Program-made: the position numbers and the translations under genes
The notes under the pieces: model-generated
Databases searched by the model: none
What the model was told of the DNA's origin: nothing
Seen by the model: the letters and a program-made list of their open reading frames with translations, nothing else
In this document: piece by piece, positions 472 through 49,135 of the stretch
How the letters are laid out: each line of letters opens with the position of its first letter
Position numbering within the stretch: the first letter of the stretch is position 1
Source of the DNA: Komagataeibacter xylinus
GTDB taxonomy: Bacteria > Pseudomonadota > Alphaproteobacteria > Acetobacterales > Acetobacteraceae
DNA: 64,000 nt
Direction of reading: 5' to 3'
Assembly (NCBI RefSeq): GCF_031081985.1
Contig: NZ_JARWSK010000009.1
Span: 1 to 64,000, forward strand

Positions 472-2577
472 CTACAGACCGGCTTCTCCCATAAAGACCG
501 AGACAATCTTGCGATAGGTCCGTTGTATGAAGCTGGTGGCGGTGGCGTGTATGCGGACCATTCCCCTGATGCGCCGCCTGATTGGTGGCAGCGGCCCATC
601 AGGCAGGATCATAACCTGATAAACCGCTTCCTCCGGCACGATCCTGTGGCTGGTCTCGTCCCGGTGTGCCTTGATATGCCCGCCATAAAGGGAGGCCTGT
701 TCCAGCGCATCGATTTCAGGAACTGATGCTACCGAAATCGACTGTACATGCCCCGTAATCTGCTTGGCACCAGGGCTGTCGGCCATAAAACTGGCCTTTG
801 CGCCGGACTGTATGAAGCTGATGTCCGTTTCATACACATATGCTTCAACGGCGGCGTGGTCTTCGGTTATGATTGAGCCAATATAATCATGCTGTTTCAA
901 TGTATCGCCAACATGGATTTCCGGTGGAACATCCACCAGCATGCCGTCAAAGGGCGCGGTGAGGGTCAACTGCCTTATCGCGGCTTCCGCCCGCAGGCGC
1001 TCGGCTGTTTCCTGCTCGATCCTGTCACGCGTATCATCAAGCGAGGCCGTATCTTCCACGCCAAACATCCGCTCCGACAATGTGGCTTCCAGCGTTGCCA
1101 GTCGTGCCATTGACACGGCACGGTCATGGTCAAGCTGGGGGGAGCGGAGTTCGGCCACGGTCTCGCCTGCCCGTACCAGGCTGCCTGTGGGCAGCAGGTG
1201 CACCACCTGTCCCGGGTCCTGCGTGTAAAGCATGCTCTGCCCTTGCGCCCGCAATACGGCAGGTGCGCGGACAGTGTGGCTCCATGGCAGTACAAGAAGG
1301 GCAATCAATATGGCAAACGCCGCACCGGTAACGTGCACGCGGCGGCTGCCGGGGGCATGCAGGGCCTGGCGTGCCCATTCCGCCAGCTCTCCCATGATGG
1401 GGCGTGCAACAAAGAACCAGATTTCAATGCCCATCAGAACCACGCCCAGCGCGGGAAAAACCGCATGATAGACAACCAGCGCAATGCCGGTGAACAGAAA
1501 GAAACGGTAAAGCCATGTGGCAAGGCTGTAGCCCACCAGCATGATGCCCCTGCGTGCGGGAAAGACCTCAGGTGGAGGCGTGTCCTTGCCAAACAGGAAC
1601 CTGCGGGTGCGCCAGCGTGTCCATGCAAATGCACGTTCCTGCAGGTTGGGAATACCCATCAGGTCGGAGAGGATATAATACCCGTCAAACCGCATCAGCG
1701 GGCTGAGATTGACCGATAGGGTCAAAATCCATGTTGAACTGCTTAACGTGAACAGGCCATCACGCAGCGGCCCGTCGGGTACAATGCTCCAGATAATGGT
1801 GGCCAGCGTGGCCAGCATGATTTCGGCCACCATGCCGGCACAGTCGATCACCAGTCGGTCGCGTGCGCGGACCAGTCGCCATGCATCGGTGGTATCGGTC
1901 CATAAAACAGGGCACAGCACCAGAAAGGCCACCCCCATGGCGGGTACCCGGCAGCCAAAATGTCGTGCCGCAATGCCGTGGCCCAGTTCATGCACCATCT
2001 TGCTGCATGCCAGCGCCAGGGCAATGCCGATTGCGCCCTGCGGCGTGATGAGATGCATGAACCCCGCGGCGTAAAGGCTCCATTGCTGCACGACCAGAAT
2101 GACCGCCAACACCACTGCCAGTGCCAGCCCGATGCAGAACCTGCGGGTAAAAAGCCAGTCCGTTAGCGGCACGCAGCGTTTAAGAACGGGATCGGGATTG
2201 CATAGCCGTACCCGTAGGAAAAGATAATGATGCAGGATCCATGACAGCAATGGCGGCTTGCGCGCCTGCCGGGCCAGCAAGGCGGTGTCTGCGCTGGTCT
2301 GCGCCGTAGTCAGTCCGGCCTGTTGCACGAAGGCGGCAAAGGCCATGACATCGGCTGACTGCGTATCAAACGTGGTCTGTTCACGCACAATGCGGGCAAT
2401 GGTGTCCGGGTCAGCCAGGTCCCAGCGTTGCAGGATTTCCATTTCCATGCTGCCAAGGCGCACGTAACGGTGGCGGGCGGGGTCATAGAGGCTCCATGTT
2501 GGCGCGCCGGTTACGACGGGGCCCCGTAACAGTTCAAGGTCATCACGCAGGGCAGGCCAGAGGGCAGGGGCGCTCAT
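472..2577 (-). CDS. PqqD-like / peptidase M50 (site-2 protease) / HlyD fusion, putative inner-membrane export component
   Basis: A 701-residue protein starting at MSAPALWP; the open frame extends further upstream, but that part overlaps the neighbouring gene. Residues about 15-90 resemble a PqqD/RRE peptide-binding fold (W-x-LYDP…YVRL…EILQRW). Residues about 145-440 are polytopic and carry the M50 zinc site HELGH (196-200) and the partner motif N290-x-x-P…D298-G. Residues about 445-640 form a periplasmic lipoyl/barrel-sandwich and coiled-coil HlyD part. It is the last gene of a leftward run (TolC, HlyD, GAF-HlyD, this gene), starting 19 bases after its neighbour stops. I infer that it replaces the ABC transporter of a type I-like exporter for the divergent giant protein. 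Its function is unproven. Confidence 0.75.
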   Translation of the reverse strand: MSAPALWPALRDDLELLRGPVVTGAPTWSLYDPARHRYVRLGSMEMEILQRWDLADPDTIARIVREQTTFDTQSADVMAFAAFVQQAGLTTAQTSADTALLARQARKPPLLSWILHHYLFLRVRLCNPDPVLKRCVPLTDWLFTRRFCIGLALAVVLAVILVVQQWSLYAAGFMHLITPQGAIGIALALACSKMVHELGHGIAARHFGCRVPAMGVAFLVLCPVLWTDTTDAWRLVRARDRLVIDCAGMVAEIMLATLATIIWSIVPDGPLRDGLFTLSSSTWILTLSVNLSPLMRFDGYYILSDLMGIPNLQERAFAWTRWRTRRFLFGKDTPPPEVFPARRGIMLVGYSLATWLYRFFLFTGIALVVYHAVFPALGVVLMGIEIWFFVARPIMGELAEWARQALHAPGSRRVHVTGAAFAILIALLVLPWSHTVRAPAVLRAQGQSMLYTQDPGQVVHLLPTGSLVRAGETVAELRSPQLDHDRAVSMARLATLEATLSERMFGVEDTASLDDTRDRIEQETAERLRAEAAIRQLTLTAPFDGMLVDVPPEIHVGDTLKQHDYIGSIITEDHAAVEAYVYETDISFIQSGAKASFMADSPGAKQITGHVQSISVASVPEIDALEQASLYGGHIKAHRDETSHRIVPEEAVYQVMILPDGPLPPIRRRIRGMVRIHATATSFIQRTYRKIVSVFMGEAGL

Positions 2578-2596
2578 GCGTCTTCTGCCGGGCCAG

Positions 2597-3934
2597 CTAG
2601 AAGGAAAGCCATTGTCGGACCACGCCCAGTGGTTTGCGCAAAGCCCAGAGCACCAGCATGTGCCGTGGGCCGTAGATGCGCGCAGTGCCGCGCAGGCCAA
2701 GGCGGATGTCGCTATCCAGATCGGCACGCAAGGTATAGGCCAGCGTGCCCGCAGGGGTCGATGTGCTGGCATAGGAGGTAAAGACCAGATGCCCCTCCGC
2801 CGGATGATTGGGGTGCACATTGTCAAAAAAACGTACGCGCGCATCGGGGGCGAAATGTGCGGCCTCGGTTGCGGGCAGGCGGATCTCGATCCGGCGCGAC
2901 AGGGCGGGCGCAACCATGAGAATGCGCTCGCCAGCTTCCACCGGGCGGCCTATCCATTCGGAAGGGTCGTTATAAAGCGCCAGCCCGTCTATCGGGGCGG
3001 TCAGGGTGGCGCGATGCAGCAATTCGCTCTGGTAGCGCATCTGGGCCGCTTCCTCATCAATGCGGCCCTTGAGTTCACCCGCCTGCGCGCGGGCCTTGGC
3101 ATCAAGCATGCCTGCCTGAATGGCTTCATCATACTGGGTGCGGGCCACTTCCAGCGCCTTGCGGGCAACAAGGTACTGGCTTTCAAGCTGGGCACGCTCC
3201 AGTTCCACGACCGGTGTACCGGCCTGCACGGCTGTATTGGGAGCGACATCAAGCTGGTGGACGATACCGGCAAAGGGCGCGCGCACGAAAGTGGGGGCAA
3301 CCGGCACGACTTCAGCCGGAGCCAGAATCCATGAATGGACCGGGTAGCACGCCACCAGCACGGCAGCCGCCAGCATGGCGCCAATGCGCCTGCGCATTCG
3401 TGTATCGCGTGGCCTGGGCGGTTGGGAGGCGATAAGCTGCCGACTTTCCGCATATTCGCCGCCAATCATGCCCAGGGCCTGAATATCGGGCGGTGTCCAT
3501 GCATCTGCCCGCGCGACAAGCAGCGTGCCCACCTGGCCATGCCGCCCCAGCAGCGGAATGAGCACGGCATGAGGGGCCATCCATTGCGCCCATTCATCGC
3601 GCAGCGTGGCCGGCAGGGTCGCGACATCAAGCACCCTGGCCTGCGCCTGTGGCGTAATGCTCTCGAACACGCGGCCCAGCCAGCGCACATAGGGGGCGGC
3701 AGAATCGAACACCGCCGTGCCGGAGATGGCGGCTATCCCCGCCTTGTCCGTGCGGTAAAGGGCGGCCTGCTGGTAGGGAAGGAGATTATGGCTTTCGTTG
3801 ACCAGCACGAAATCCAGTTCATCAGGCGGGCAGGTCCGCAGGCGCTCGCACAGATGCACAAGGGCTGACAGCCGCAGCAATGCAGCCTGCCGGCCCTGCT
3901 GCAGGCGTGCGGGATCAGGCGGGGAGGAGGTCAT
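2597..3934 (-). CDS. GAF domain-HlyD fusion, membrane adaptor
   Basis: The protein has 445 residues. Residues about 20-165 look like a GAF-type sensor domain, with the typical 'VLIPLLGRHGQVGTLLVAR' strand pair. One membrane helix follows (about 184-203), then a periplasmic HlyD/RND adaptor core: lipoyl half (FVRAPFAGIVHQLDV), a short coiled coil, second lipoyl half (ATLTAPIDGLALYND) and a beta-barrel end. This puts GAF in the cytoplasm and the adaptor in the periplasm. The gene starts 20 bases after the upstream adaptor stops, so it is probably co-transcribed with the TolC-like and M50 genes. A cytosolic sensory domain on an adaptor suggests signal-gated export, but no ligand can be inferred. 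Confidence 0.75.
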   Translation of the reverse strand: MTSSPPDPARLQQGRQAALLRLSALVHLCERLRTCPPDELDFVLVNESHNLLPYQQAALYRTDKAGIAAISGTAVFDSAAPYVRWLGRVFESITPQAQARVLDVATLPATLRDEWAQWMAPHAVLIPLLGRHGQVGTLLVARADAWTPPDIQALGMIGGEYAESRQLIASQPPRPRDTRMRRRIGAMLAAAVLVACYPVHSWILAPAEVVPVAPTFVRAPFAGIVHQLDVAPNTAVQAGTPVVELERAQLESQYLVARKALEVARTQYDEAIQAGMLDAKARAQAGELKGRIDEEAAQMRYQSELLHRATLTAPIDGLALYNDPSEWIGRPVEAGERILMVAPALSRRIEIRLPATEAAHFAPDARVRFFDNVHPNHPAEGHLVFTSYASTSTPAGTLAYTLRADLDSDIRLGLRGTARIYGPRHMLVLWALRKPLGVVRQWLSF

Positions 3935-3954
3935 GATCCGTCAGCCATCCGTTA

Positions 3955-4776
3955 TCATTGACCGAACTGGGCTTCTCCCGTCATGCCCGGTAGCAGGTCA
4001 GGGGCGGGGCGGGTCAGTTTGCCATAGACCTTGATGGTCTTGCTGACAGGGTCCACCTTGCCCGAAATGCGGCTGACGGTTGCCGGGTAGGTGGCATCCG
4101 TCTCCAGTATATGAACCTTGAACGGCGTGCCGGGCTGCAGATGGCGCAGTTCCATGGATGAGACGATCATGGACAGTTCAAGCGAGGTATCATCCAGTAT
4201 TTCCAGCATGGGGGTTCCGGCTGAAAGATACTGGTAATTATGCACCATGGTGTTGGAGACACGCCCGTCAAACGGAGCCTGGATCACGCACTGGGCCACA
4301 ACGGCGTTGGCCATTTCCAGATCGGCATTGGCTGCCTGTTCATCGGCTGCCGCCGAGCGCAGGTCCGATACGCTCCATTGCCCGAGCGCCTTCATCTTGT
4401 TCTGCACATCAAGCAGGCCACGACGCTTGATGTATTCGGCATGGGCGTGGGCAAGGGTTGCCTTCTGCTGGCCGCAGCGGAACTCGGCAAGGACATCGCC
4501 CTTGTGAAAATGGTCACCGTCGCGCAAGGGAAATTTTTCAAGCTGGCCCGACATGCTGGCGCTGATCTGCGCACTCATGGGCGCGGTGACCTGTACGCTC
4601 GGGGCATGGACCGCCGTGCTGTCCGGCTCCGATGTGGGGGGCATATCAGGTTGCGCGACAGGTACCGTGGCGGTCGGTGTCGTGTCAGCGGGAGCGACCG
4701 GGCGTGCTGTCTGGGCCAGGACCGTGCCGGGTGCAAGGCCAAGCAACAGTGCCGAGATAAACGAATATATACGCAT
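3955..4776 (-). CDS. HlyD-family periplasmic adaptor
   Basis: I start it at the methionine of MRIYSFISALLLGLAPG because this gives a clean signal peptide ending …TVLAQ and GGAAGG lies 12 bases upstream; a longer frame begins at 4842. The mature protein has a Pro/Thr/Ala-rich linker (about residues 25-70). A split lipoyl domain follows (SASMSGQLEKFPLRDGDHF and VIQAPFDGRVSNTMV) around a helical hairpin, then a C-terminal beta-barrel (PATVSRISGKVDPVSKTIKV). It is a standard RND/HlyD membrane-fusion adaptor without an inner-membrane anchor, and is expected to bridge to the TolC-like lipoprotein encoded just upstream. Confidence 0.8.
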   Translation of the reverse strand: MRIYSFISALLLGLAPGTVLAQTARPVAPADTTPTATVPVAQPDMPPTSEPDSTAVHAPSVQVTAPMSAQISASMSGQLEKFPLRDGDHFHKGDVLAEFRCGQQKATLAHAHAEYIKRRGLLDVQNKMKALGQWSVSDLRSAAADEQAANADLEMANAVVAQCVIQAPFDGRVSNTMVHNYQYLSAGTPMLEILDDTSLELSMIVSSMELRHLQPGTPFKVHILETDATYPATVSRISGKVDPVSKTIKVYGKLTRPAPDLLPGMTGEAQFGQ

Positions 4777-4874
4777 ATATGCAACCGGCCTTCCGGAATA
4801 ATAAGGCACCATGACCGCCCGGGGCGACGGGGCCTTAAACATTACTTATTAGTAATAATATTCAAAATGGCAGA

Positions 4875-6536
4875 TCAGCCGGGTGTAGCGGCAGGCTGTG
4901 CCGTATCCGTCTGCGCGACAGGGGTGGAAGGCGGTGCAGCCTGCGGCACCGGCACCGCGACGGGTGCCGTGCTGTTGCCCGCATCCGGTTTCCTGACATT
5001 ATCGGGCAGCGTCAGGTCAGGCAGGCGGCCGTTTTCCCACAGGGCAATGGAATGCTTGACCTGCGCCGTCAGGTGCTTGAGATCCTGAATATCGGCATTG
5101 GCAGGCACAAGATCCACGCCGATGGAAGCATACAGGTTGGCCAGCGCCTGATGTGTATGGGCAAGGCTGCGGCTGTATTCAAGCTGGCCGAGCAGGGCCG
5201 CCATCTGGTGGCGCACGCGATTGGCCTCGGACTGCGCGCCTGCGGCGGAGGCGGAGACGGCAAGCTGCTCCATCTGCAGGCTCACATCGTTGATCTGCCG
5301 CGAGGATTTGAGGAAATCCACCGCCGTGACGTATTTCTGCGCGCTCAGGTTGATCTGGGCCAGAATGGCGACACTCAGCGCCAGGCGACGCATTTCCGAG
5401 AGCTTGACATTGCCCTTGGCCACCGCGATGGCGCGCGGCCCCTGGATCATGTTGATCAGGTTGACGGTCGCCCGCACCCCGATCTGCCCCCAGATGTGGT
5501 GGTAAAGCAGCGCATTCGAATCAAAGTTGCCGTTCCCGATGGCGCCGATACCGGGCATCATCTTCAGGATTTCCTTATAGACATCCTGCCGGTCAACCTT
5601 CTGCTGGTACACTTCCATGCGCAGTTCGGGGCGCATGACCAGCCCCATGCGCTCCAGCGTGGGAATGTCGAGGTTGCCCAGTGGCTGCACGTCCTGCGGG
5701 TGGGTGGCGAGGTTGAGCTTTTCATCCTGCGGCACGTTGATGAGCGAGGCGAGCTGGATCTGCGCGCCAACCAGCTCATCCTTGATGCGCCGCATCTCAC
5801 CCAAGATCTGGATGATGTTCTGCTGGTAATCAAGCAGCGTAAGGGGAGACTGCAGGTGCGCGTTGCCGGCATCCTGCGATGCCGCCAGCATGGTCTCCGC
5901 ATCGTGGATGATGGGATCAAGGCGGGGCAGCATGACCTGGGCTGCGGCAGCCTCCCAGTAATTGGTGGTTACGGCCTTGACCAGATCATTGATGGCGCGC
6001 CTGCGGCGCTCGACGGCAATCAGGGCGCGGAAAGCCTGCTGGCGGGCGGAGAAATAGCTGATCCCCGCATCCATCGCGTTCCATGAAAAGCTGATATCGC
6101 CGCTGCCATGGCTGGGCATTTCGGAATAGGAATAATCCAGCGAGCGCTGGTTGCTGAATTCATCAATACTTTCAGCAGCATTGTTGTTGCTTCTGTCGGT
6201 ATAGCCCGCATCGGCCGCAAGGTGCGGCAGCATCTGCATCAGGGCCAGATCAAGCTGCTTTTCCTGCTGGTTGATCTCAAGCTTGGCGACCTGTGAGTCA
6301 TAGTTGAACTTGAGCGCGCGCGCGATGGCGGTGCCCAGTGTCAGTTCACCATCGAGCGGCAGGTAACGCGCCTCGATCGTGGCGTGATCGGCATCGGCAC
6401 GTTTGATATGATCGGCCAGGGGCATGGGCTTGGGCCGCATGCCGCACCCTGCCAGCAGCATGACTGTCGAAAGCGCGGCGCAGGAGACCAGACGTATTTT
6501 ACCACGGGTAAGCTGATGCGTCACAGGATTTACCAT
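4875..6536 (-). CDS. TolC-family outer-membrane channel lipoprotein
   Basis: The protein has 553 residues. An N-terminal signal ends in the lipobox LLAGC, so it is probably lipidated. Two long helical halves show outer-membrane efflux protein features: GTAIARALKFNYDSQVAKLE in the first, and RPELRMEVYQQKVDRQDVYK opening the second. The C-terminal 60 residues are Pro/Ala/Thr-rich and probably disordered. It is the first gene of the leftward export operon, 98 bases ahead of the HlyD adaptor. That gap holds an imperfect ATTACT/AGTAAT hairpin at 4841-4856. The start has GGAA about 5 bases upstream. Role: exit duct of the exporter; its cargo is inferred to be the divergent giant protein. Confidence 0.8.
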   Translation of the reverse strand: MVNPVTHQLTRGKIRLVSCAALSTVMLLAGCGMRPKPMPLADHIKRADADHATIEARYLPLDGELTLGTAIARALKFNYDSQVAKLEINQQEKQLDLALMQMLPHLAADAGYTDRSNNNAAESIDEFSNQRSLDYSYSEMPSHGSGDISFSWNAMDAGISYFSARQQAFRALIAVERRRRAINDLVKAVTTNYWEAAAAQVMLPRLDPIIHDAETMLAASQDAGNAHLQSPLTLLDYQQNIIQILGEMRRIKDELVGAQIQLASLINVPQDEKLNLATHPQDVQPLGNLDIPTLERMGLVMRPELRMEVYQQKVDRQDVYKEILKMMPGIGAIGNGNFDSNALLYHHIWGQIGVRATVNLINMIQGPRAIAVAKGNVKLSEMRRLALSVAILAQINLSAQKYVTAVDFLKSSRQINDVSLQMEQLAVSASAAGAQSEANRVRHQMAALLGQLEYSRSLAHTHQALANLYASIGVDLVPANADIQDLKHLTAQVKHSIALWENGRLPDLTLPDNVRKPDAGNSTAPVAVPVPQAAPPSTPVAQTDTAQPAATPG

Positions 6537-6885
6537 GAATTTCCGGGTTGTATTCAGGTCGTCAAGAAAAATTTCAACGCAAGATGGCGGGAACAGTATT
6601 ATGGTTACCTGATCATATAGAACTGTATAGATCTATATATAGGTACGGCTTGGTAATTCCGCCTATTTTGCAGTTACTCTGCGCTCGATACCGGGCACGG
6701 CATGGTAGTTATGGGGCGCACACATTTTTGTCAACTTCATTCGTTGTAACACGAGAAAAAAAATTGTAGATGGAATGCGGGAATTGAAAATGCAGTCGTA
6801 GCGCCCTGCTGGGTGGAAATGATTCATCTCATGGAAACCATAACCTGGTATTCCTAAACAAATTGTTGATAAAAATGGTTTTTTC
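6537..6885. promoter_or_regulatory. Divergent intergenic region of the export/adhesin locus with a 12-bp palindrome
   Basis: These 349 AT-rich bases separate the TolC operon from the giant protein gene. TATAGATCTATA at 6626-6637 is a perfect palindrome and a candidate operator. A TTGACA on the minus strand (complement of 6729-6734) could serve the leftward operon, but its -10 is weak. No convincing promoter or strong ribosome site was found for the rightward gene, whose ATG follows a T-rich run. No gene is visible here. Confidence 0.4.
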
Positions 6886-9800
6886 ATGCGTCTGATTCTT
6901 GAGCAGAGATATCTCTTTGATGGCAGCGTGGCGCATGTCTCCCATCACCATGGGGCGGACAGGCACCATCACGAGAATCAGGGGGAAAATGCTCATGATG
7001 CCCCTGTTGTGGATGAAGCCGTCGGTTCCCTGCCGGATTTACCTGCAACCACTGGTACAGATAAGTCAGTGCATGATCGCAATGGTGGAAAAAAAGACAG
7101 TTTTACCGATATCGTCTTTGTAGATTCCCGGGTCAGCGACTGGCGCGAACTCACGGCCTCGCTTGGCAATAACGTGGGCGTGGTGGTGGTGGACAATACG
7201 CGTGATGGCATGTCCGTCGTCTCGCGCGTGCTGTCGCACCAGCACAACCTCAACAGTGTCAGCTTCCTCACCTACGGGCAGGCAGGCCAGATCGAGCTTG
7301 GCAGCACCACCATCAATGCCGCCACCCTCATGGCGGACAGCACGCAGGTGGCGCAGTGGGGCGATGCGCTGGGGGCGAAGGGGCAGATCCTGTTCTGGGG
7401 CTGCGATGTGGGGCAGGGGGCTGCCGGTCAGGCGCTGGTCGAGGACCTGCACACCCTGACCGGCGCGGGTGTCGCCGCCTCGACCGATGCCACGGGCCTT
7501 GGCGTGCTGGGGGGTGACTGGACACTGGAGCGCACGGCCGGGCTGGATGGCAATGCCGTGGATGCACCCTTCTCGGCTGCGGCCGAGGCCGGTTATGACA
7601 GCGTGCTCGACAGCCCGACGGCTACCGTCACCATTTCAAGCCCCACCGATACCAGCAACCTGCTGGGCAATACCTTTTCCCAGACCATCACCTTTTCCAA
7701 CAATGCGTCCAATGGCGTGGGCTATGCGCCTTTTGTCGAGATATTCGCGCCAACCAACGCAACACAGGATACCCCGCTTACCTCTGTAACCTATCTGGGC
7801 CAGAGCCTGTCCGCCAAGGCTGTCACGCTGGTGGATGTCGATGGCAAGGTCGGAGCCTATAATCCCTACAGCAGCGGCACGGATGGCAAGCCGCAGTTTG
7901 TTACGGCGCCTGCGGGTTTCAAGGCGGGCGATACCATGTATGTGGTTTCCCTGCCGTTCGGCAGTTACACGCCCAAGCAGCCAACCCTCACCCTTACGGC
8001 CAGTTTTGCCAATAACACGACCGAGTCCGTCGATGCGCCTACAGGTACTGGCACCCCCATTACCATCGCTGCCGCCGGTGGTTACCAGTATGGCGCCGAT
8101 GCGCTCAATGACCCCGGCACTGACCCGACCATCCAGGGGGCTGTCGCAACCAATACCGTTGCCCAGAACCTCGTGCAGGTGACCGCCGGTATCCTGACCT
8201 CGCCGCGTGGCGAGGATGAGGTGCCCACTGGCCCGGATTATCCCGCTACCTACGAGGTGACCGTCACCCCTGCCGAAGCAACGCAGGCCAACGCCATCAA
8301 GGACATGACGCTCAATGTCACCCTGCCTGACAGCGTCAATTACAACAACAGCCCCATTACCCTGACCGGGGCCGATGGCTCGACCATCAGCGGCACGGCC
8401 ACCTATGTGCCGCCCGCTGATGGCTCAAAGGAAGGCGGATCGGTCAAGATTACGCTCGATAGCGTGGCCTACAGCGCAAATGCGCCCTACAAGATTGATA
8501 TTCCGGTCTATGTGGGCCAGACGGATGCGGCCGGGAATTCAATCCTCAATGCTTCTGGCGGCATCACATCGCCCACCACCATTTCGGGTGCGACCATATC
8601 CTATACCGGCACCTGGACCCCGCCCGTGGCAGAGGGTCAGACCGCCACGCCCGTTGCGCTGGACCAGACGGTGGACACGGTCCCCACCACGTTCAACGCC
8701 AAGGCCTTCGCGGTGCAGGAGACGGATACGATCACGAATGCGGATGGCAGCGCCACCGGCCTGGCCGCCGGGCAGGTCATGCCCGGCGATACCATCACGC
8801 ATGATATCCATATCGAGAATTCGGACTACTATTCCAGCACCGGCATGGTGGTCACCACCACGCTGAGCGATGGCCAGACCCTGAAGCCGGGCACCAGCCC
8901 CACCTTTACCTATACCGATGCCACCGGCACGTCCCATACCGTGCAACTGGGCAGCGCCTACTGGTCGGCCACGCCGGGCGATAACGGGCAGACCGTGGTG
9001 CAAATGAACATCGCCCAGTATCTGGCCGATAATAAGCTGCCAGCCATGGGGGCGGGCAAGCAGGGCACGATCAGCTATGCCAGCACGGTAAACGAGAACT
9101 ATACGGCCACAAATACCCCGGTGACCGAAGGCGATACGATCAGCAGCAGCGTGAGTGTCAGCGCGCAGGCAACAGGTCCCGATGGCACCACCTCTCAGGT
9201 GCAGGATGGTTCAAGCAATACGCTTTCCGTGCCCGAGGGCACGACGGGGCTGAAGATCGTGGCCATCAATGGCGTTGCCGTGGATGACACGACTACGCCT
9301 GTCATCCATGCGGGTGACAAGGTGACTTACGAGGCAACCTATACCCTCCAGACCGGCACCTATACTGACCTCAACCTCTCGTCTTACCTGCCTCTGCCGC
9401 TTTATGACACGAGCAACCCCACGGGCACCGGTGATTCTGCTTTCACGGCTTCCGACAGCACGGACCCGACCCAACAGGCGGCTGGCACCTACAGCGTGGT
9501 GAGCGTGCCAAACGGTGTCGATCCGGGCAAGGTCACGGTCTCGACGCAGTCCGCGAATAACAGCATCAGCTTTGATATGGGCAACAGCAACACGCTTGCC
9601 ACGAGTGATGCTGGCAAGCAGGTCGCCGTGCTGTTTACCCTCAATGCAACCTCAAGCCCCTTTGCCGATGGCCTGAGCCTGACCAGCCAGGAGCAGTCCA
9701 CCCTGACCAATGGGCAGAATGCCCAGACCGCCCAGTCCACCCTGCAGTCGGTTACCGTTGCCGAGCCTGCGGCCGAGATCAAGACGGGCGTGGTATCAGT

Positions 9801-12800
9801 CATGAACGGCGCCAGTGCGGACAAATCCGTCACCTACACGCCCCAGACAACGGGTGAAGGGACGGATACCAATCCCACCACCACCTTCAACGCGGCGGGA
9901 TCGGATGGGGGGGCCTATACATCGGTTCCCGCAGGTGGCGTGAGCGGCCTTGGCGCGGTCAATGACCTCAATGCCACGGGGGCCGAGGGCGGCGACACGG
10001 TGCGCATTGCCTCCACGGTGGAAAATACCGGCTCGGCCGGCATGTACGACCTGACGGTATCGGGCACCCTGCCTGCCGGGTTCTCTACGGCGAATGTAAA
10101 GAATTTCCAGATCACGCGCCCCGATGGCACGGTGGTCTATTCCTCGGCGGCGGATGCCACGACTGCGGCCAGCAGCTATTTCACCACCGGCGGCCTGACC
10201 ATACCGGCCACCTCGGCCACCGCTGCAGTCCTGGCCAAGGGGCAGGACCTGACCATTACCTATGACCTGGCCCTGCCCACCGGCCAGAACCTGGGCGATA
10301 CGCTGGTGGCCAGCGCAAACGTGGTGAACTTTGGCAACAGCCCCGGCGCGGTTGCGCAGGGCGACGGGTTCGTGACCAATGGCGTGCCGCTTGGCGGGCA
10401 GGCATCTGACCTGACCGACCCGGCAAGCATCACCCTGCAGACGCCCACCATCAGCAAGACCATCGGCCCCTCAAACCTGCCTGAAAATGATGGCGTGGAT
10501 ACAGCCACCTCCAGCGGCACCATTGTCAGCGGCGAGACGCGCACCACCACCATTACCGTAACCGTGCCCGAGGGTACGCTCAGCAATGGCGCGGGTGATG
10601 TGACGGTGGTGGAAACCCTGCCCGCTGGCATGGACTATGCCGGGGGCTTTACCGCTACCCTGACCGGCGCGACCGCATCAGGCGCCGATGCCAGCGGCAA
10701 CCTGCCTGCGCCCACGGCGGTCAGGAACGCCGATGGCACCACCACCCTTACCTTTGACCTTGGCAAGACGGTCACCAATTCCAGTTCCACGCCCGGCACC
10801 ATAACGCTGGCCTATAACGGCTATTATGGCGAGAACAATGCGCCAGCCAATGCCGCCACGATCACGTCATCGGCGGTGCTGAACTACAGCGCGCATGATG
10901 ACACGAGCACCGTGGCCGAGCAGGCCGGCCCTGCCGACGTGACCGTAACCGAGCGCAAGCCCTCCCTGACCGAAACCATTACCGATGACACCAACGGCCA
11001 GCCGCTGTACAGCGGCCAGCAGGTCACCTATACCCTGAAGCTGAGCAACAATGGTGATGTCACGGCCTATGACGTCGATCATGCCATCACGCTGCCCTCG
11101 GATCTGAAGGACGTCACCATCACCGGCGGGGGGCAGACCATCACCGTCGCTGCCGGGCAGACATCCGTCGCCCTGTCCCAGCTTGCCTCTCTCGCCCCTA
11201 CCGATGCCCCGGTCACCTACACCATTACCGGCACGGTCGCCTCCGACCTGCCTGCAGGCACGAAGCTTGCGGTAACGGACAACTACACCTGGCATTCGGC
11301 ACCCAAGAGCAACGAATTCACACCGCCCTCGGGCACCCCGTCCGGGTCGGGGGGGGCGCCTGTTACACCGCAGGACGTGCCTGAAGCGTTCAAGGGCACG
11401 GTCAGCGACGCGCCAGCGGTTGGCAACTTCACTTCCGTGCTCGACATTGTTGGTGAAAGCAACGGCACCAGCAGCGGCATTTCCCCCACTAAGTCCGTTA
11501 CGGCGGCCAATGCCGTGCCTGGCGACCAGGTGACCCTGCAGGGCGAGGTCTCGATCCCTGAAGGGCAGAACCAGGATGTGACGCTGACCCTCAAGGTGCC
11601 GGACAACGTGCAGCTTGACCCCACATCGCTGCGCCTGCTGCTGGCCAGCCCGAACGGGGAAGTCATATCATCCGGTTTTGGCAGTGCCACGCAGCTTGCG
11701 GAAGGGACAACATCGGCCGTGCAGGTGGACGGCAAGACCTTCACGCTTTCGAGTGCGGCGGAGGCCGCGCTCAACAGCAGTGGCGCGGCCATAACCGGCG
11801 TGACAACGGATTCCGCCGGCCAGACCGTGCTCACCATCAATCTCGGCACGGTCACCAACAACGATACGTCATCCGTTCCCAACTATGCCATCATCCAGGT
11901 GGCGGGCACGGTGCTCAATACCACGGCCAACAAGGATGGCACCGCCCTGAGCGAGAGCCTGACGGCCAGTACGTCACCAACGCCCACATCAACCACGTCC
12001 ACCCCCGCATCCACCATCACCGAAACGGTCAGGGAACCCACCGTCTCGCTGGGCAAGGCGGTCACCGCGATCAACTACACTGATGATACCGTCACCTTTA
12101 CCGATACCCTGACCAATACTGGCGATGCCACGGCCTATGATGTCGCCCTCAATGACCCGCTGGTGGCAGGGCAGGAAACCGTTGACGGCGCTGTCGTGGC
12201 TACGGGTGCAGGCACGGTGGACACCACGATCAATGCCAGCGGCAGCGTGGCGGCTGCCGATGCGAAAGGCGTGACCACCAACGGTCTGACACTGGCCGCC
12301 GGTGCCAGCGAGACCGTAACCTATACGGTCAAGCTGTCCGACCTGACGCAGGGGCTGGCGCAGACCACGACCAATGTAACGTGGGAATCACTGGCCGGAG
12401 CCACGCCCGCCACTTCAGGCGCAACGGACCAGAGCCGCGATGGCTCGGCCGGGCAGGATGGCAAGGCAGGCACCAACTCCGCCGATACCTATGAGCGCTC
12501 GGTCACGATGGGTCTTGGCACGCTGTCGGGCCAGATCTGGCAGGCGCTGGGCAATACGCCGGGCACTTATGACAGTACCATCGATACCGCGCTGAAGGGC
12601 GTAGGCGTTACGGTGACCGCGCGCGGGCAGGATGGCACCTATGCCACCGGCCTTGTGCAGACCGGCATTACGACCGATGCCAGCGGCGACTATGCAGCGC
12701 TTGTGCCGGTTTATGGCACGCCCACATCCTCCATTGCGGAAATTACCGTGCCGACCACGGGGGGCACGGATGGCGTGCCCGCCAGCGAGACGGAGGTCTA

Positions 12801-15800
12801 CAACCATGATGGCGCGGTAACATCTGCCACGACCGCTGTCAGCCCCGATGCGGATTCAGCCAGTGGCATGAGCGCAACCCATGCCGACCTGGCTTATGAA
12901 CTGCCCGATACCGCGCCCACCATAACAGGCTGGCAGGATACCACGCCCCACGTCACCACTACCGGCACCGCCACGGCAATTGGTGATGGCGGGATCACGG
13001 TGGATGACCACGAACTCGATACGCTGACCACGAAGGAAAGCGGCACCTACAGCTATGCCGGTACCATGCTGACGGTGCAGCGCTATGTTGATGGCAAGGC
13101 CGCCCCCTCGGGCACCGATAGCTTTGGCGCGACGGGCACCGACGTGAGCATGGCGGGCGGACAGGTGAGCGTGAACAACACCGTAATCGGCACCTATACC
13201 GACACGGGCGGCGTGCTGCAGTTCACGTTCAATGCCTCCGCCACCAAGACCAGCATCGCCACACTGGCGCAGGACCTGACCTATACCTACACGCCCACCG
13301 CGAGCGATCCGGCAACGCAGCTTGATGTCACGCTCGGAGCCACGTTCTCGGATGGCAATACCGACCTTGCGGGCCAGCAGGCCACCACGGGCGCACAGGG
13401 TACGGGGGGCGTGCAGACCAGCGCGCCCATGTTCACGCATGTGAGTGTTGGCGGCAGCACCTTTGCCACCACCTTTACCGAACCCAATGACACCCCGGCC
13501 GCGGCATCGGCAACCGCGCTTGGCTCCTATGTCTCGGTGGAGGATGCATCGGGCACGGGTGCGGGGTCGATCCAGAAAGTAACGGTGCAGATCGGTTCCG
13601 CCACGGCGGAGGACGTGCTGGCCGCCACCACGGCGGGCGGCATTACCGCGAGCCTCGACAGCGCAACTGGTACCCTGACCCTGACTGCGGGCACCGCTAC
13701 CACGCTCAAGAACTGGCAGGCCACGCTGGCCAGCCTGAAATATTACGACAGTTCTGATACGCCCATCGAGGGCACGCGCAATGTGAGCATATCGGTTTAT
13801 GAAAACGGGGCGAACACGCCCATCGTCACCAATGGCACCATTGCAGTTACGGCTGCCAATGACTCCCCGGTGCTTGATCCCTCGGTCCCGGTTTCCCTCA
13901 ACGATGCGCAGGAGGACTCCGCGCCGCCGCAGGGCGCGGTGGGCACGGCAGTTTCGCAGCTTGTGGGCTATGCAGGGGCAACAGGTGGCGCAGGCAACGT
14001 GACCGACCCCGATGGCGCGGGCCTGACCGGCCAGGGTGCCGCAGGCGCCACGTCGCTGCCCGGCATTGCCATTACCAGCGCCGATACCACACACGGCACA
14101 TGGTGGTACAGCACCGATAACGGCAAGACATGGACCGAATTCGCCGGCAGCGGTGCAAGCAATGCAGTTGGCAGTGGCAATGCCCTGCACCTGATCGATA
14201 ACGGGCAGGCACGGGTCTATTTCCAGTCCACCGACCCGAACTGGAACGGCAAGGTCAATGATGCCCTGACCTTCCGCGCATGGGACCAGTTTGATGGCGC
14301 GGCCAATGGCAGCATTTCCGCCCTGCCTGCCACCGCAGGGCTGGGCACGGGCACCAACACGCCGGGTTCCGCCTATTCGGCAGCCACGGATAGCGTTGTG
14401 CTGATGGATGACAACGTGAACGACGCCCCGAACGTGGTGGCCGATAACACCACCCCCGGCGCAACCCCGGTCACGGGGGACCAGCCCGCCTCGTGGAAGG
14501 TGACGGAAGATACGCCGCAGGCCACAAGCGTGCAGGGGCTGTTTGGCAGCTACTTCTCCGACCAGACCGACCAGCAGCACAGTGCGACCAACCCCGATGG
14601 CTCCACAGCCAACACCATGGCGGGCGTGGCCGTGGTGGGTTACACGCCCTCGGCTGCGGGCACATGGTCGTATTCCACCGATGGCGGCAAGACATGGACG
14701 CAGCTTTCGGCCGCCGTCTCGACCACGAATGCCCTTGTGCTGTCCAAGGATGCGCAACTGCAGTTTACGCCTGCGGCCAACTATAACGGCCAGCCTGTCA
14801 GTGGCGATGACCTCAAGGTCGTGCTGATCGACAATTCGGGCGCCGCATCAGGCAGCCCGGCCCTTGTGGGAGCGAACGGGCAGGCCCTGACCACGGCTGA
14901 TGGCACGTCGCTGACCGGTGCCGCGCTTGATTCGGGCACGATGGCGATAGCCGGGGCCGATGTCTCGACCCGTGGCGGGCAGACCGCGCTCAGCAAGGGC
15001 ACGGTTGACCTGTCCACCACCGTGACGCCGGTCAATGACCCGCCGACAATGGCGGCTGGCCCTTCGGGTGGCGCCTACACGCTGCCTGATGTGACCTCCA
15101 ACAGTGCTGACAGCGCCAATACGGGCACCACGGTTGCAGACCTGTACTCCAATGCCGTGCAGGATGGGTCCGATGCGCAGCAGGGCGCGGCCGATCCCAC
15201 CGGGTCCACTGCCGACCATCTGGCCGGCGTGGCCATTACCGGCAACACGGCCAACCCCGCAACCGAGGGCACGTGGCAGTATTCCACCGATGGCGGCAAG
15301 ACATGGACGGACGTGCCCGCCAATGTTTCAGGCAGCAATGCCGTGGTACTGGGCGACCAGGCCAAGGTGCGCTTTGACCCCGTGCCCAACTTTACCGGCA
15401 CGCCGGGCGGGCTGACCACGCAGGTTGTCGAGACCTCGGCCGACGTGCCCCTGACCGGCACCAGCGATGGCGTTGCCACCAGCGTGACCGGGCAGGCGCT
15501 TGATGGCACCGCCACGGCCCTGACGGGCGTGAACATAACCCAGATGCAGCAGGACCACCCCAACGGGTCGGTCAGCACCAACAGCCAGCCGCTGGATGTC
15601 AAGGTTAATCCGGATGCGCACACGGCTGTAACCATTCCCCCGGGCACGGAAGACCAGCCGGGCACGAAGGAAACGGTCTCGCAACTGTTCACCACCACCG
15701 ACCCCAATGGCGTGGGTGGCGTTGCCATTACCGGCAATGCCACGCCCGCCAGCGAAGGGACATGGATGTATTCCGTGCCCGGTGGCGCGGCGCAGGCGCT

Positions 15801-17232
15801 CCCGACCGATCTTTCTGCGACCAGCGCCGTGGTCCTGCCCAATGATGCGCAGGTCTGGTTCCAGCCTGCGCCCAACTTCAATGGCGACCCGTCCAACATC
15901 TCGTTTACGGCAACGGTGATCGATAATACGACCGCCACCGCCTTCACGGGGGCGGATGGCAGGGCCGTGGCGGGTAATGCCATAACCGGCGTGACCACAG
16001 GGGTTGATGTCAGCAACACCGGCGGGGGCACCGCGCTCGACGTGGTGCCGGTGCAGGTGAGCACCAGTGTGGCACCGGTCAACGACGCGCCGGTAGCCAG
16101 CGGCAGCGCCACACTGCCTTCGGCCGATACCAGCAACCAGCAGGTCAGGGGCGATAGCGTATCCTCCCTGTTCGGGCCAACGTTCTCCGATCAGACCGAT
16201 CAGCAGCGCAGTGCCTCCAACCCCGATGGCTCGGTGGCCGACCATCTGCAGGGCGTTGCCATTGTGGGCAATACGGCCAACCCGGCAACGCAGGGCACAT
16301 GGCAGTATTCAACCGATGGGGGCCGGACATGGCAGAATGTCAGCACCTCGGTTTCCACTACCGCCGCCCTTGTGCTGCCTGCCAGCGCGGAACTGCATTT
16401 TGCGCCCGTAACCGGCTTTACCGGCACGCCGGGCGGGCTGTCTGCCGCACTGGTCGAGACCAACAGCACGCTGGCCACGGGCACGGCGGCACAGGTGGCC
16501 GATGTCTCGGCGCTGATGGCTGATGAGACCAGCCATGTCTCGCAGACCACCGTGGCACTGAACACGAACGTGACACAGCAGGAGGGCAATCCCGCCCTTT
16601 CGGGTTCGACCCTCAACAATGACCTCAGTTCCTCCGACCTGCTCAAGACATCGGTGGAGGACGGGTTCGAGAACGAGTTCCAGCGTGGCTTTGGTGTTGC
16701 GCACCAGACATGGATACGCGGCACGTCGCTCTACCGGTTTGTGACAACCAACCAGCAATATGATGTTGATGTGCCTGCTGGCGCCTTCATCAGTTCGGAT
16801 GGCACGGACCTCAACCTGACCATTACGGCACGCCAGGCCGGTGGCGCGCCGTTGCCGGACTGGGTCTCGTTCGATGCGGATCGCCGCTGCTTTTCCATGG
16901 TCGCGCCAGATGAGGCCACCGGTTCCATCGATCTGGCCCTTATTGGCCGCGATGAATATGGCCATGAGGCCGAAGTGGATGTGCATGTGGTGATCGGGCA
17001 CGAACATCCCGCGTGGGAAATGGGTAACGATCCGTCCATTCCGCAGGCGGTGGAGCGCGCGATGCAGGTGGTGGAGCAGGACATGAACTGGCTTGCCTTC
17101 AATCCCGATTTCCATCGCGGCAGTCATCAGCCAGCCGAGGCAGTTCACGGCAAAAAGGGACTGCGGGCGCAGATGCGCCAGGTCGGTCAGAGAGCCGCAT
17201 ATGCGCGCAGCCGCGACCTGGTCAATCACTGA
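6886..17232 (+). CDS. Giant DUF4347 / conserved-repeat surface protein (putative adhesin)
   Basis: The protein has 3448 residues, with strong Thr/Ser/Asp/Gly bias and almost no Cys. Residues 4-13 (ILEQRYLFDG) match the LEPR-type N-terminal motif of very large exported repeat proteins. A His-rich stretch follows (16-30). Residues about 74-240 are a DUF4347 domain (VFVDSRVSDWREL…ILFWGCDVGQG). A long array of DUF11-like beta-sandwich repeats runs from about 250 to 1870. An SdrD-B-like domain is at about 1874-1945. Five cadherin-like modules with the G-T-W-x-Y-S-T-D-G-G-K-T-W signature are at about 2400-3240, and a dystroglycan/cadherin-type domain is near 3275-3370. I see no RTX nonapeptides. 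It is divergent from the exporter operon and is likely exported to the cell surface for adhesion or biofilm. Confidence 0.8.
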   Translation: MRLILEQRYLFDGSVAHVSHHHGADRHHHENQGENAHDAPVVDEAVGSLPDLPATTGTDKSVHDRNGGKKDSFTDIVFVDSRVSDWRELTASLGNNVGVVVVDNTRDGMSVVSRVLSHQHNLNSVSFLTYGQAGQIELGSTTINAATLMADSTQVAQWGDALGAKGQILFWGCDVGQGAAGQALVEDLHTLTGAGVAASTDATGLGVLGGDWTLERTAGLDGNAVDAPFSAAAEAGYDSVLDSPTATVTISSPTDTSNLLGNTFSQTITFSNNASNGVGYAPFVEIFAPTNATQDTPLTSVTYLGQSLSAKAVTLVDVDGKVGAYNPYSSGTDGKPQFVTAPAGFKAGDTMYVVSLPFGSYTPKQPTLTLTASFANNTTESVDAPTGTGTPITIAAAGGYQYGADALNDPGTDPTIQGAVATNTVAQNLVQVTAGILTSPRGEDEVPTGPDYPATYEVTVTPAEATQANAIKDMTLNVTLPDSVNYNNSPITLTGADGSTISGTATYVPPADGSKEGGSVKITLDSVAYSANAPYKIDIPVYVGQTDAAGNSILNASGGITSPTTISGATISYTGTWTPPVAEGQTATPVALDQTVDTVPTTFNAKAFAVQETDTITNADGSATGLAAGQVMPGDTITHDIHIENSDYYSSTGMVVTTTLSDGQTLKPGTSPTFTYTDATGTSHTVQLGSAYWSATPGDNGQTVVQMNIAQYLADNKLPAMGAGKQGTISYASTVNENYTATNTPVTEGDTISSSVSVSAQATGPDGTTSQVQDGSSNTLSVPEGTTGLKIVAINGVAVDDTTTPVIHAGDKVTYEATYTLQTGTYTDLNLSSYLPLPLYDTSNPTGTGDSAFTASDSTDPTQQAAGTYSVVSVPNGVDPGKVTVSTQSANNSISFDMGNSNTLATSDAGKQVAVLFTLNATSSPFADGLSLTSQEQSTLTNGQNAQTAQSTLQSVTVAEPAAEIKTGVVSVMNGASADKSVTYTPQTTGEGTDTNPTTTFNAAGSDGGAYTSVPAGGVSGLGAVNDLNATGAEGGDTVRIASTVENTGSAGMYDLTVSGTLPAGFSTANVKNFQITRPDGTVVYSSAADATTAASSYFTTGGLTIPATSATAAVLAKGQDLTITYDLALPTGQNLGDTLVASANVVNFGNSPGAVAQGDGFVTNGVPLGGQASDLTDPASITLQTPTISKTIGPSNLPENDGVDTATSSGTIVSGETRTTTITVTVPEGTLSNGAGDVTVVETLPAGMDYAGGFTATLTGATASGADASGNLPAPTAVRNADGTTTLTFDLGKTVTNSSSTPGTITLAYNGYYGENNAPANAATITSSAVLNYSAHDDTSTVAEQAGPADVTVTERKPSLTETITDDTNGQPLYSGQQVTYTLKLSNNGDVTAYDVDHAITLPSDLKDVTITGGGQTITVAAGQTSVALSQLASLAPTDAPVTYTITGTVASDLPAGTKLAVTDNYTWHSAPKSNEFTPPSGTPSGSGGAPVTPQDVPEAFKGTVSDAPAVGNFTSVLDIVGESNGTSSGISPTKSVTAANAVPGDQVTLQGEVSIPEGQNQDVTLTLKVPDNVQLDPTSLRLLLASPNGEVISSGFGSATQLAEGTTSAVQVDGKTFTLSSAAEAALNSSGAAITGVTTDSAGQTVLTINLGTVTNNDTSSVPNYAIIQVAGTVLNTTANKDGTALSESLTASTSPTPTSTTSTPASTITETVREPTVSLGKAVTAINYTDDTVTFTDTLTNTGDATAYDVALNDPLVAGQETVDGAVVATGAGTVDTTINASGSVAAADAKGVTTNGLTLAAGASETVTYTVKLSDLTQGLAQTTTNVTWESLAGATPATSGATDQSRDGSAGQDGKAGTNSADTYERSVTMGLGTLSGQIWQALGNTPGTYDSTIDTALKGVGVTVTARGQDGTYATGLVQTGITTDASGDYAALVPVYGTPTSSIAEITVPTTGGTDGVPASETEVYNHDGAVTSATTAVSPDADSASGMSATHADLAYELPDTAPTITGWQDTTPHVTTTGTATAIGDGGITVDDHELDTLTTKESGTYSYAGTMLTVQRYVDGKAAPSGTDSFGATGTDVSMAGGQVSVNNTVIGTYTDTGGVLQFTFNASATKTSIATLAQDLTYTYTPTASDPATQLDVTLGATFSDGNTDLAGQQATTGAQGTGGVQTSAPMFTHVSVGGSTFATTFTEPNDTPAAASATALGSYVSVEDASGTGAGSIQKVTVQIGSATAEDVLAATTAGGITASLDSATGTLTLTAGTATTLKNWQATLASLKYYDSSDTPIEGTRNVSISVYENGANTPIVTNGTIAVTAANDSPVLDPSVPVSLNDAQEDSAPPQGAVGTAVSQLVGYAGATGGAGNVTDPDGAGLTGQGAAGATSLPGIAITSADTTHGTWWYSTDNGKTWTEFAGSGASNAVGSGNALHLIDNGQARVYFQSTDPNWNGKVNDALTFRAWDQFDGAANGSISALPATAGLGTGTNTPGSAYSAATDSVVLMDDNVNDAPNVVADNTTPGATPVTGDQPASWKVTEDTPQATSVQGLFGSYFSDQTDQQHSATNPDGSTANTMAGVAVVGYTPSAAGTWSYSTDGGKTWTQLSAAVSTTNALVLSKDAQLQFTPAANYNGQPVSGDDLKVVLIDNSGAASGSPALVGANGQALTTADGTSLTGAALDSGTMAIAGADVSTRGGQTALSKGTVDLSTTVTPVNDPPTMAAGPSGGAYTLPDVTSNSADSANTGTTVADLYSNAVQDGSDAQQGAADPTGSTADHLAGVAITGNTANPATEGTWQYSTDGGKTWTDVPANVSGSNAVVLGDQAKVRFDPVPNFTGTPGGLTTQVVETSADVPLTGTSDGVATSVTGQALDGTATALTGVNITQMQQDHPNGSVSTNSQPLDVKVNPDAHTAVTIPPGTEDQPGTKETVSQLFTTTDPNGVGGVAITGNATPASEGTWMYSVPGGAAQALPTDLSATSAVVLPNDAQVWFQPAPNFNGDPSNISFTATVIDNTTATAFTGADGRAVAGNAITGVTTGVDVSNTGGGTALDVVPVQVSTSVAPVNDAPVASGSATLPSADTSNQQVRGDSVSSLFGPTFSDQTDQQRSASNPDGSVADHLQGVAIVGNTANPATQGTWQYSTDGGRTWQNVSTSVSTTAALVLPASAELHFAPVTGFTGTPGGLSAALVETNSTLATGTAAQVADVSALMADETSHVSQTTVALNTNVTQQEGNPALSGSTLNNDLSSSDLLKTSVEDGFENEFQRGFGVAHQTWIRGTSLYRFVTTNQQYDVDVPAGAFISSDGTDLNLTITARQAGGAPLPDWVSFDADRRCFSMVAPDEATGSIDLALIGRDEYGHEAEVDVHVVIGHEHPAWEMGNDPSIPQAVERAMQVVEQDMNWLAFNPDFHRGSHQPAEAVHGKKGLRAQMRQVGQRAAYARSRDLVNH
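14095..16335 (+). repeat. Intragenic tandem modules (cadherin-like) with near-identical DNA cores
   Basis: Five copies of a segment encoding GTWxYSTDGGKTW-like sequence begin near 14095, 14659, 15268, 15757 and 16294, so the module period is roughly 490-610 bases. The cores at 14659 and 15268 differ at only a few bases over about 40. The fourth copy has lost the STDGGKTW part. Such arrays are prone to recombinational copy-number change. Confidence 0.8.
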
Positions 17233-19411: not shown

Positions 19412-19442
19412 CCTGTCCCCTGCGCTCCGTAAAGAAACCATC

Positions 19443-19518
19443 AAAAGTTTTTGGCGAAGCTTTTTCAAAAAGCTTCGGAAGAACACCACTTTTGGCAAAA
19501 AGGTGGCACCCGGAAACT
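19443..19518 (+). repeat. Palindromic intergenic element, copy in a divergent promoter region
   Basis: A perfect 21-base palindrome (19456-19476) is followed by a second imperfect hairpin (CACCACTTTT…AAAAAGGTGG). Flanking TTTTTGG and CACCCGGAAA correspond to the element ends. This copy sits between two divergently transcribed genes. Confidence 0.85.
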
Positions 19519-19658
19519 CCTGTCCTGTTATCAAAGTGCCTGCCTCATGGCTGCACGACAAGAGGGCGGCCATGAAAACCCCCAGACCCGTCCCTTCCGC
19601 AAATCGAAGTCATTACCTGCGGGAAATGAGGGTTGTCCGCCACGTGTGTCTGAGGATC

Positions 19659-21305: not shown

Positions 21306-21321
21306 TCCGGAATTACCGATC

Positions 21322-48918: not shown

Positions 48919-49106
48919 GGCTGGGCCACGGCCCAGGCCACCAGCCCCCATAACAGGCCACAGGGCAGTGCCATGCACACCAGGCGCTGCCAGCCTGCGC
49001 GGGCCATCCATGTCAGCGGCAGGGGCGTTGCCGCCTTGGGGGCAGGGTGGGGCATTGTCGTGTTGTGGTCCTGCAGGGCGTGACGGGTGGCTGAGGGGAA
49101 TGGCAT
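48915..49106 (-). CDS. Small membrane protein, first gene of the zinc operon
   Basis: The protein has 63 residues from MPFPSATRHALQDHNTTMPH, or 46 from the second methionine (49055). The tail is one membrane helix (LVCMALPCGLLWGLVAWAVA) ending QP-stop, and the stop overlaps the znuC ATG. The position just below the Zur box and the coupling support a real gene, though I do not recognise it. It could be a small regulatory or accessory subunit of the importer. Confidence 0.55.
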   Translation of the reverse strand: MPFPSATRHALQDHNTTMPHPAPKAATPLPLTWMARAGWQRLVCMALPCGLLWGLVAWAVAQP

Positions 49107-49120
49107 GGGAACGCCCAAAG

Positions 49121-49135
49121 TGTTATAATATAACA
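49121..49135. promoter_or_regulatory. Zur box
   Basis: TGTTATAATATAACA is a perfect 7-1-7 palindrome that matches the core of the proteobacterial Zur operator. It lies 15 bases upstream of the first znu operon gene and between it and the divergent LysE-type exporter gene, so it may control both. Confidence 0.85.

Follow-up and report, generated by a model that had tools for sequence, protein, structure and literature searches.

Among described systems, the closest to the locus reported here are type I secretion systems (T1SS) such as HlyB-HlyD-TolC and the LapBCE-type exporters of giant adhesins. A T1SS-like locus without an ATPase has reportedly been published under the name 'ATPase-independent type 1 secretion system (aT1SS)'; no description of it was found in the open-licence PMC literature, preprints being outside that scope. 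PMC6963963 describes an adhesin T1SS of Pectobacterium, and in PMC8277102 the energised part is said to be an ATP-binding cassette (ABC), RND or MFS transporter. The present locus lies at 472-17232 of a 64,000-nucleotide stretch of Komagataeibacter xylinus DNA (assembly GCF_031081985.1, contig NZ_JARWSK010000009.1; hereafter the window), which is contig 16 of a 3.53 Mb genome. It consists of four genes for an M50 protease-HlyD fusion, a GAF-like HlyD adaptor, a free HlyD adaptor and a TolC-family lipoprotein, and a divergent gene for a giant repeat protein. The four genes are a real, conserved module that lacks an ABC gene and recurs across many Gram-negative bacteria, and sequence comparisons make it very probable that this module exports the giant. 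Because the ABC transporter is missing from it, the module is not a T1SS by definition, although in its outer part it probably works like one.

All five genes (four minus-strand, one plus-strand) were confirmed at the positions where a preliminary description of this DNA had placed them. The features are as follows.

472..2577, minus strand: fusion of a PqqD-like part (probable), an M50 protease and HlyD, 701 aa, with an ATG at 2577
2245..2556, minus strand: N-terminal domain of the fusion (residues 8-111), probably PqqD-like (RRE-like), by hhalign to sister N-termini
1978..1992, minus strand: HELGH zinc site of the fusion, residues 196-200, by sequence and alignment
1681..1710, minus strand: NLSPLMRFDG, second M50 motif of the fusion, residues 290-299, by sequence and alignment
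532..1281, minus strand: HlyD/MacA-like adaptor part of the fusion, residues 433-682, by Pfam, PDB sequence matches and Foldseek
2597..3934, minus strand: GAF-like HlyD adaptor, 445 aa, with a single hydrophobic helix at about residues 177-198
3955..4842, minus strand: HlyD-type periplasmic adaptor (TIGR01730, 108.3 bits, exceeding the cut-off of 94.9)
4875..6536, minus strand: TolC/OEP family outer-membrane protein with lipobox LAGC (PF02321, E 5e-21)
6537..6885, no strand: intergenic stretch separating the divergent genes, from the sequence
6886..17232, plus strand: DUF4347 giant repeat protein, 3448 aa, the proposed cargo
6898..6924, plus strand: leader motif LEQRYLFDG, residues 5-13 of the giant
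7111..7608, plus strand: DUF4347 domain of the giant (Pfam, E 4e-45)
17158..17175, plus strand: GLRAQM near the C-terminus of the giant, containing a match to [LFMV]xxQ[LMFV]

In Pfam, HlyD is over its cut-off in three of the locus proteins and OEP in the fourth. The free HlyD adaptor has its listed start at 4842, and a signal-peptide-like start is seen by eye in the sequence further downstream. A sequence check of the giant found no RTX nonapeptide, as the preliminary description had stated.

A scan of named genome contigs gave at least 590 confirmed relatives of the fusion, and the analysis was made on the best 80 of them. ABC ATPases were called by a two-motif regular expression, and giants or adhesin-like proteins by our composition filter. 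The 80 loci span Alpha-, Beta- and Gammaproteobacteria, and include Nitrospira, Campylobacteraceae and Desulfonema metagenome-assembled genomes. Of these, 78 carry the GAF-HlyD gene, 67 the adaptor, 64 TolC and 56 an adhesin-like open reading frame (ORF); where 8.5 kb or more of upstream sequence is available (54 loci), the figures are 54, 52, 50 and, for an adhesin-like ORF or giant, 46. No ABC ATPase was called inside the module in any of the 80, in keeping with its absence from the locus as noted earlier, and four have one within 1.5 kb. The usual order, on one strand, is giant, TolC, adaptor, GAF-HlyD, fusion. Variants place the giant between adaptor and GAF-HlyD or beyond the fusion, and in the window and in Komagataeibacter loci L036-L038 it is divergent. 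A chance neighbourhood is excluded by the conserved order in many lineages together with the co-occurrence described below. The fusions also form a sister branch, which splits from that of the window with support 1.0; it is represented by 24 loci in all, 20 of them drawn from the weaker fusion matches listed.

Co-occurrence was examined in 299 Pseudomonadota genomes, where only 5 candidates (fusion) or up to 11 (DUF4347) were scored per genome, so that genome counts are lower bounds. The fusion profile (E 1e-20) matches at least 74 genomes and DUF4347 at least 73, with 58 shared. For the window-branch module (E 1e-90, 60 genomes) the association is strong: DUF4347 is present in 54 of the 60, against 19 of the 239 others (odds ratio 104, p 4e-36, uncorrected for kinship). 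Among 19 congeners the fusion occurs in 10 and DUF4347 in 9, all nine being fusion carriers (9/10 vs 0/9); in G006, the lone congener with a fusion and no DUF4347, the fusion sits at a contig end. DUF4347 lies within 30 kb of the module for 16 of the 22 modules in genomes of at most 30 contigs, and for 45 of 111 places overall, among the matches listed. The co-occurrence of fusion and giant proteins, which the preliminary description had proposed as a check, thus came through without being refuted. Eight further modules were chosen because DUF4347 was not near or was absent from the genome; seven adjoin an adhesin-like ORF (a 556-aa fragment in L158), and L161 is without one.

The giants share a short leader at the N-terminus, LExRxx[F/Y/L]D[A/G]. 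It is present in all 20 DUF4347 giants beside modules (19 with F or Y, L136 with L), these loci having been picked for module and DUF4347 lying together. None of 14 DUF4347 loci from module-less genomes has it N-terminally, these loci coming from 13 of the 15 genomes that have DUF4347 but no module; here an internal match in L120 (residue 206 of a 422-aa frame) was set aside, and the frame of L129 opens inside the domain, so that its true start may lie out of view. From these two counts the leader tracks the exporter and not DUF4347. Among the adhesin-like ORFs beside the eight further modules, three have their N-terminus in view; all three carry the leader, and Pfam shows no DUF4347 in them. 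In a wider set of 29 giants the strict form is found in 20, while shuffled sequences gave the looser form once in 5800, and two seeming background matches among 4447 ORFs turned out to be giant N-termini. By our reading, the nine without the strict motif are fragments (the second ORF of L025 and of L035; L036), masked cases (L089, L109), an ORF that is no giant (L092), a variant from the sister branch (L033) and, as genuine exceptions, L029 and L074. Sec-like character is lacking in the leader region: only one of 41 giants exceeds a hydropathy of 1.8 across 15 residues, a threshold of our own. In the genome of the window, the back-translated leader matches once, at 6898, and a reversed control pattern twice; a single match is therefore within chance, and it is its position that counts. 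No other cargo with the same leader was found in this genome by the exact pattern. On these comparisons the leader is reasonably likely to be an address for the exporter. That the giant is the cargo, as proposed earlier, is supported as likely by linkage, co-occurrence and the common leader.

Towards the other end of the cargos, the motif [LFMV]xxQ[LMFV] was found at the C-terminus of 43 of 64 and 14 of 17 module-locus ORFs (shuffle expectations 0.16 and 0.21), and of none of 16 ORFs in module-less genomes (0.13).

DUF4347 was itself considered as the export signal and rejected, as module-less genomes have DUF4347 beside T1SS-type ABC genes and none with the leader at the N-terminus. Such ABC genes adjoin the DUF4347 protein in three of the 14 module-less loci (L117, L120, L121). 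Their best NCBIfam model is type_I_sec_HlyB at 511-522 bits, under its cut-off of 725.55, and all three loci also carry an HlyD-like gene, that of L117 being over the type_I_hlyD cut-off. By eye, other module-less loci show RTX-like C-termini (L119, L123, L125) or Sec-like N-termini (L118, L126). To judge from these gene neighbourhoods, ABC exporter and M50 module appear to be alternatives for related cargo.

In L157 (3981-9101) a leader-bearing giant without DUF4347 has a lactonase-type beta-propeller match at its start (PF10282, E 1.6e-18). The E. coli plasmid NZ_CP081687 (L024, 2340-22091) carries a complete module with a 13.4-kb gene for an Ig-like giant with leader, flanked by insertion sequence genes. 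The four exporter genes of this locus match 24 of 5426 E. coli genomes, 22 of them over at least 80% of the query, and 21 of 25 places are plasmid-borne. The annotated plasmid records examined name the exporter genes as efflux or generic adaptors, so the tie of the module to giants is hidden from gene names.

The frame of the fusion was listed from a TTG at 2913, and the ATG at 2577, which gives 701 aa, matches the point where conservation among homologues begins; its closest named relatives among the matches listed are from Komagataeibacter (88-92% identity). HELGH and NLSPLMRFDG together with membrane helices mark it as a putative site-2 protease, with a Pfam Peptidase_M50 score of 26.7 bits, just below the cut-off of 27.2. 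The zinc-protease site, earlier described as intact (HELGH plus N-x-x-P…D-G), proved to be invariant across homologues: H, E, H, N, P and D are identical in 93/93 aligned fusions (four from the sister branch), and H, E, H and D are kept in all 24 sister loci, aligned as 25 rows with a reference copy of L031. The conserved D belongs to one of the two scan patterns behind the 80 genome loci, so its conservation there is partly forced; HExxH does not, and is unforced. A degenerate protease serving as scaffold is thus unsupported, and the protease site, as judged from the alignments, is under strong constraint. The closest NCBIfam protease models are those of ribosomally synthesized and post-translationally modified peptides (RiPPs), namely daptide_HExxH (NF041824, E 1e-44) and YydH/LiaK (NF058609, E 4e-8), both far under their curated cut-offs (152.9 vs 300 bits and 33.3 vs 225).

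Ahead of the protease, the fusion probably starts with a PqqD-like, leader-binding domain, to judge from profile comparison through the sister branch. Sister N-termini match PqqD (PF05402) in 17 of 24 cases at E up to 1, the best at 7.7e-10 and L031 over the cut-off; in the PDB a sister N-terminus matches PqqD at 6.5e-5 and, weakly, TfuB1 (0.05), both of which we take to be leader-binding proteins in peptide maturation. The window-branch N-terminus aligns to the sister N-termini by hhalign at 97.1% and E 7e-11. A Pfam PqqD match was obtained in one of 30 members of the window clade (E 0.017), which is not the window member. The fold of the fusion is predicted confidently (pLDDT 91.5), and its HlyD part finds MacA/MexA by Foldseek at E 4e-14 to 6e-14.

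The neighbouring adaptor had been called a GAF-HlyD protein. Its HlyD part holds, by the Pfam match already given. For the GAF part there is a weak match at E 0.026 in the window protein, the sole one among 16 members, and a profile comparison at 48% probability; two sister homologues match GAF at 5e-13 and 4e-10. The predicted structure is confident (pLDDT 95.4), with a topology that by eye is consistent with GAF. The Foldseek matches listed for this protein and for the fusion are to HlyD, and none resolves the M50 or GAF parts.

How such export would be powered was left open in the preliminary description, and the sister branch suggests a SecA-type ATPase as candidate power source, on the evidence of gene content. 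A SecA-like gene adjoins the fusion in 20 of the 24 sister loci (in pieces in L172 and L174), with one more weak case and three without. Two of the proteins run against Pfam gave E 8.5e-99 and 1e-103, with SecA DEAD, P-loop and preprotein cross-linking domains, and a third matches the first at E 1e-184. Walker A (TGEGKT) is present in 16 of 18 sister SecA-like proteins examined, and motif II in its strict form in 10 of 18. The genome of the window holds a single SecA. Three of these sister ATPases, annotated as 'prepilin peptidase' (two records) or 'DEAD/DEAH box helicase' (one), are located as follows.

L031, 17021-18937: SecA-like ATPase beside the sister fusion
L034, 17516-19540: SecA-like ATPase beside the sister fusion
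L032, 16877-18838: SecA-like ATPase beside the sister fusion

Where the N-terminus is in view, sister leaders read LExR..[LF]SA (L185, L189, L180, L181), or IEPRILLSAD in L033. Some sister giants are enormous, their frames running without a stop over at least 18 kb of the 20 kb covered (L183-L187, L192). In L031 (12543-12863), L032 (11484-11789) and L033 (12666-12962) the gene after the giant encodes a small DUF3467 protein. It was tried as a SecB-like protein and rejected, there being no SecB among its seven PDB matches at E up to 10 and nothing convincing.

From these elements we infer the following route. The four genes would make up a trans-envelope exporter devoted to the divergent giant, a T1SS-like conduit without the ABC transporter. 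The giant, having no Sec-like signal, would be addressed by its leader LEQRYLFDG, which the PqqD-like domain of the fusion would bind on the cytosolic side; the M50 core would then clip the leader, as a commitment or release step. The HlyD part of the fusion, the GAF-like HlyD protein and the free HlyD adaptor would make up an adaptor ring leading to the TolC lipoprotein. A SecA-type ATPase would push the chain; the sister branch encodes such a motor beside the fusion, whereas the window's branch would depend on its sole housekeeping SecA. Taken as a whole, a leader-dependent, protease-gated HlyD/TolC export pushed by a SecA-type motor has slightly better than even prospects in our judgement; leader binding, cleavage, passage through the conduit and the motor role of SecA are its conjectural steps, and so is the processing or threading of the cargo by the protease that the preliminary description had suggested. 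For a motor role of SecA in the branch of the window, we put the chances somewhat below even.

Several observations weigh against this proposal. In the window's branch neither an ABC nor a SecA-like gene belongs to the module; a SecA-like gene was found in none of 117 loci, some with short flanks, and the motor there is for this reason an extrapolation. Three aligned sister SecA-like proteins end early, with most of SecA's C-terminal third missing. They stop approximately where the helical scaffold of SecA begins, and with that part missing such short proteins may dock on the fusion and not on SecYEG. M50 proteases usually cut membrane segments, and the leader is no membrane segment. The window member's own N-terminus gave no direct Pfam PqqD match. 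The giant of L074 has a Sec-like start and L029 shows no leader, and L188 and L191 are exceptions within the sister branch. Finally, T1SS-type ABC genes are commoner in module genomes (54/60 vs 146/239; three candidates scored per genome, E 1e-100), and the genome of the window has one too, a T1SS-like ABC (743-aa ORF) with its own HlyD near repeat-protein and glycosyltransferase-like genes (6457-10139 of L153, G000:C10:146500-164500). An ABC frame also stands within about 150 bases of TolC in two of 20 loci, L131 and L139, that of L139 being MsbA-like.

These ABC genes, with the frames within 1.5 kb in four of the 80 loci, would fit a T1SS that is served in trans by an ABC transporter from another locus. 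This is weakened by six of the 60 module genomes, which have no T1SS-like ABC at E 1e-100 with three candidates scored each, five of them with a DUF4347 giant; scoring most or all of their candidates gives TIGR01842 matches of at most 233 bits, against references of 197 for an MsbA-like and 293-296 for three HlyB-like proteins. Moreover, within the genus, genomes that carry the module and genomes that lack it have similar best T1SS-type matches (top matches of the L153 type are similar in all 19 congeners, with no obvious giant within the stretch listed), and no ABC frame was found by regular expression in the 24 sister loci. We regard a trans-acting ABC as unlikely, although help of this kind may still be given, since T1SS-type ABC genes occur in most module genomes and in that of the window. 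Another reading dispenses with an ATPase motor: the membrane core of the fusion would move the cargo, driven either by the proton-motive force or by extracellular folding of the chain. The window-branch module, in which both of the ATPase kinds tested (ABC and SecA-like) are missing, speaks for it, the SecA-like ATPases of the sister loci speak against it, no proton-translocating feature came to light (no search aimed at one was made), and it seems to us about as unlikely as the trans-acting ABC.

It is also conceivable that what the four genes process or export is some small peptide or molecule, the giant reaching the surface by another route or being merely co-regulated. For the M50 and PqqD parts the nearest models come from RiPP maturation, and the HlyD/TolC parts resemble efflux adaptors. 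But in many lineages giants are linked to the module, their leader follows the module and not DUF4347, and they have no Sec-like signal, which makes this improbable. LapG acts on LapA after export, to release or retain it, and the M50 protease could likewise act post-export on the giant, with transport left to another partner. An invariant zinc site in a protease fused to an adaptor would suit such a role; a leader at the extreme N-terminus and a PqqD-like domain in the fusion would not, and M50 sites lie within the membrane, close to the cytosol. This too we hold to be improbable. A leader-addressed export through the HlyD/TolC conduit, pushed by a SecA-type motor, is the reading that we prefer.

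Elsewhere in the window, the regular expression found an ABC-like frame only at 48187-49122, 31 kb past the giant, and none near the module. A multi-pass transporter-like frame followed by an HlyD/EmrA-like adaptor lies at 19098-22398, presumably an ordinary efflux pair.

New in this analysis are the shared leader of the giants, the PqqD-like start (probable) of a fusion with invariant HExxH, and the SecA-like gene of the sister branch. If the module does export the giants, type I-like export could do without the ABC motor that textbooks require, the sequence of a giant surface protein of this class would reveal its address tag, and SecA-like proteins now labelled 'prepilin peptidase' or 'helicase' would gain a role. 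Komagataeibacter is known for cellulose production, and the module offers a testable surface-protein system in this genus. Only tentatively can one go further, to a separate Gram-negative secretion class with an LExR leader, a PqqD-like reader, a membrane zinc protease that would both clip the leader and form the base of an HlyD/TolC conduit, and a SecA-type motor replacing the ABC, in which the leader logic of RiPPs would be reused for a cell's largest proteins.

Among known systems, T1SS resemble the module in that HlyD-type adaptors and a TolC-family component are coupled to a giant repeat protein lacking a Sec-like signal, and perhaps also in the C-terminal motif common to many of its proposed cargos. 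The module differs in having no ABC at the locus, three HlyD-type proteins, a protease and PqqD-like domain fused to an adaptor, an N-terminal leader and, in the window, a giant without RTX repeats. RiPP M50 leader proteases provide the best protease models for the fusion and share the PqqD-like part of its sister homologues, whereas here the protease is fused to HlyD, scores far below the cut-offs and has a giant, not a small peptide, as neighbour. The LEPR-XLL proteins (NF012209) have an N-terminal LExR-like core, and their model matches the sister giant of L033; it misses the window giant, and window-branch leaders end in D[A/G] where those of the sister branch have SA. With SecA2 and accessory Sec systems the sister neighbour shares the SecA DEAD, P-loop and preprotein cross-linking domains, but it is shorter, under the cut-offs of all SecA/SecA2 models matched, linked to HlyD and M50, and was not found in the window-branch loci.

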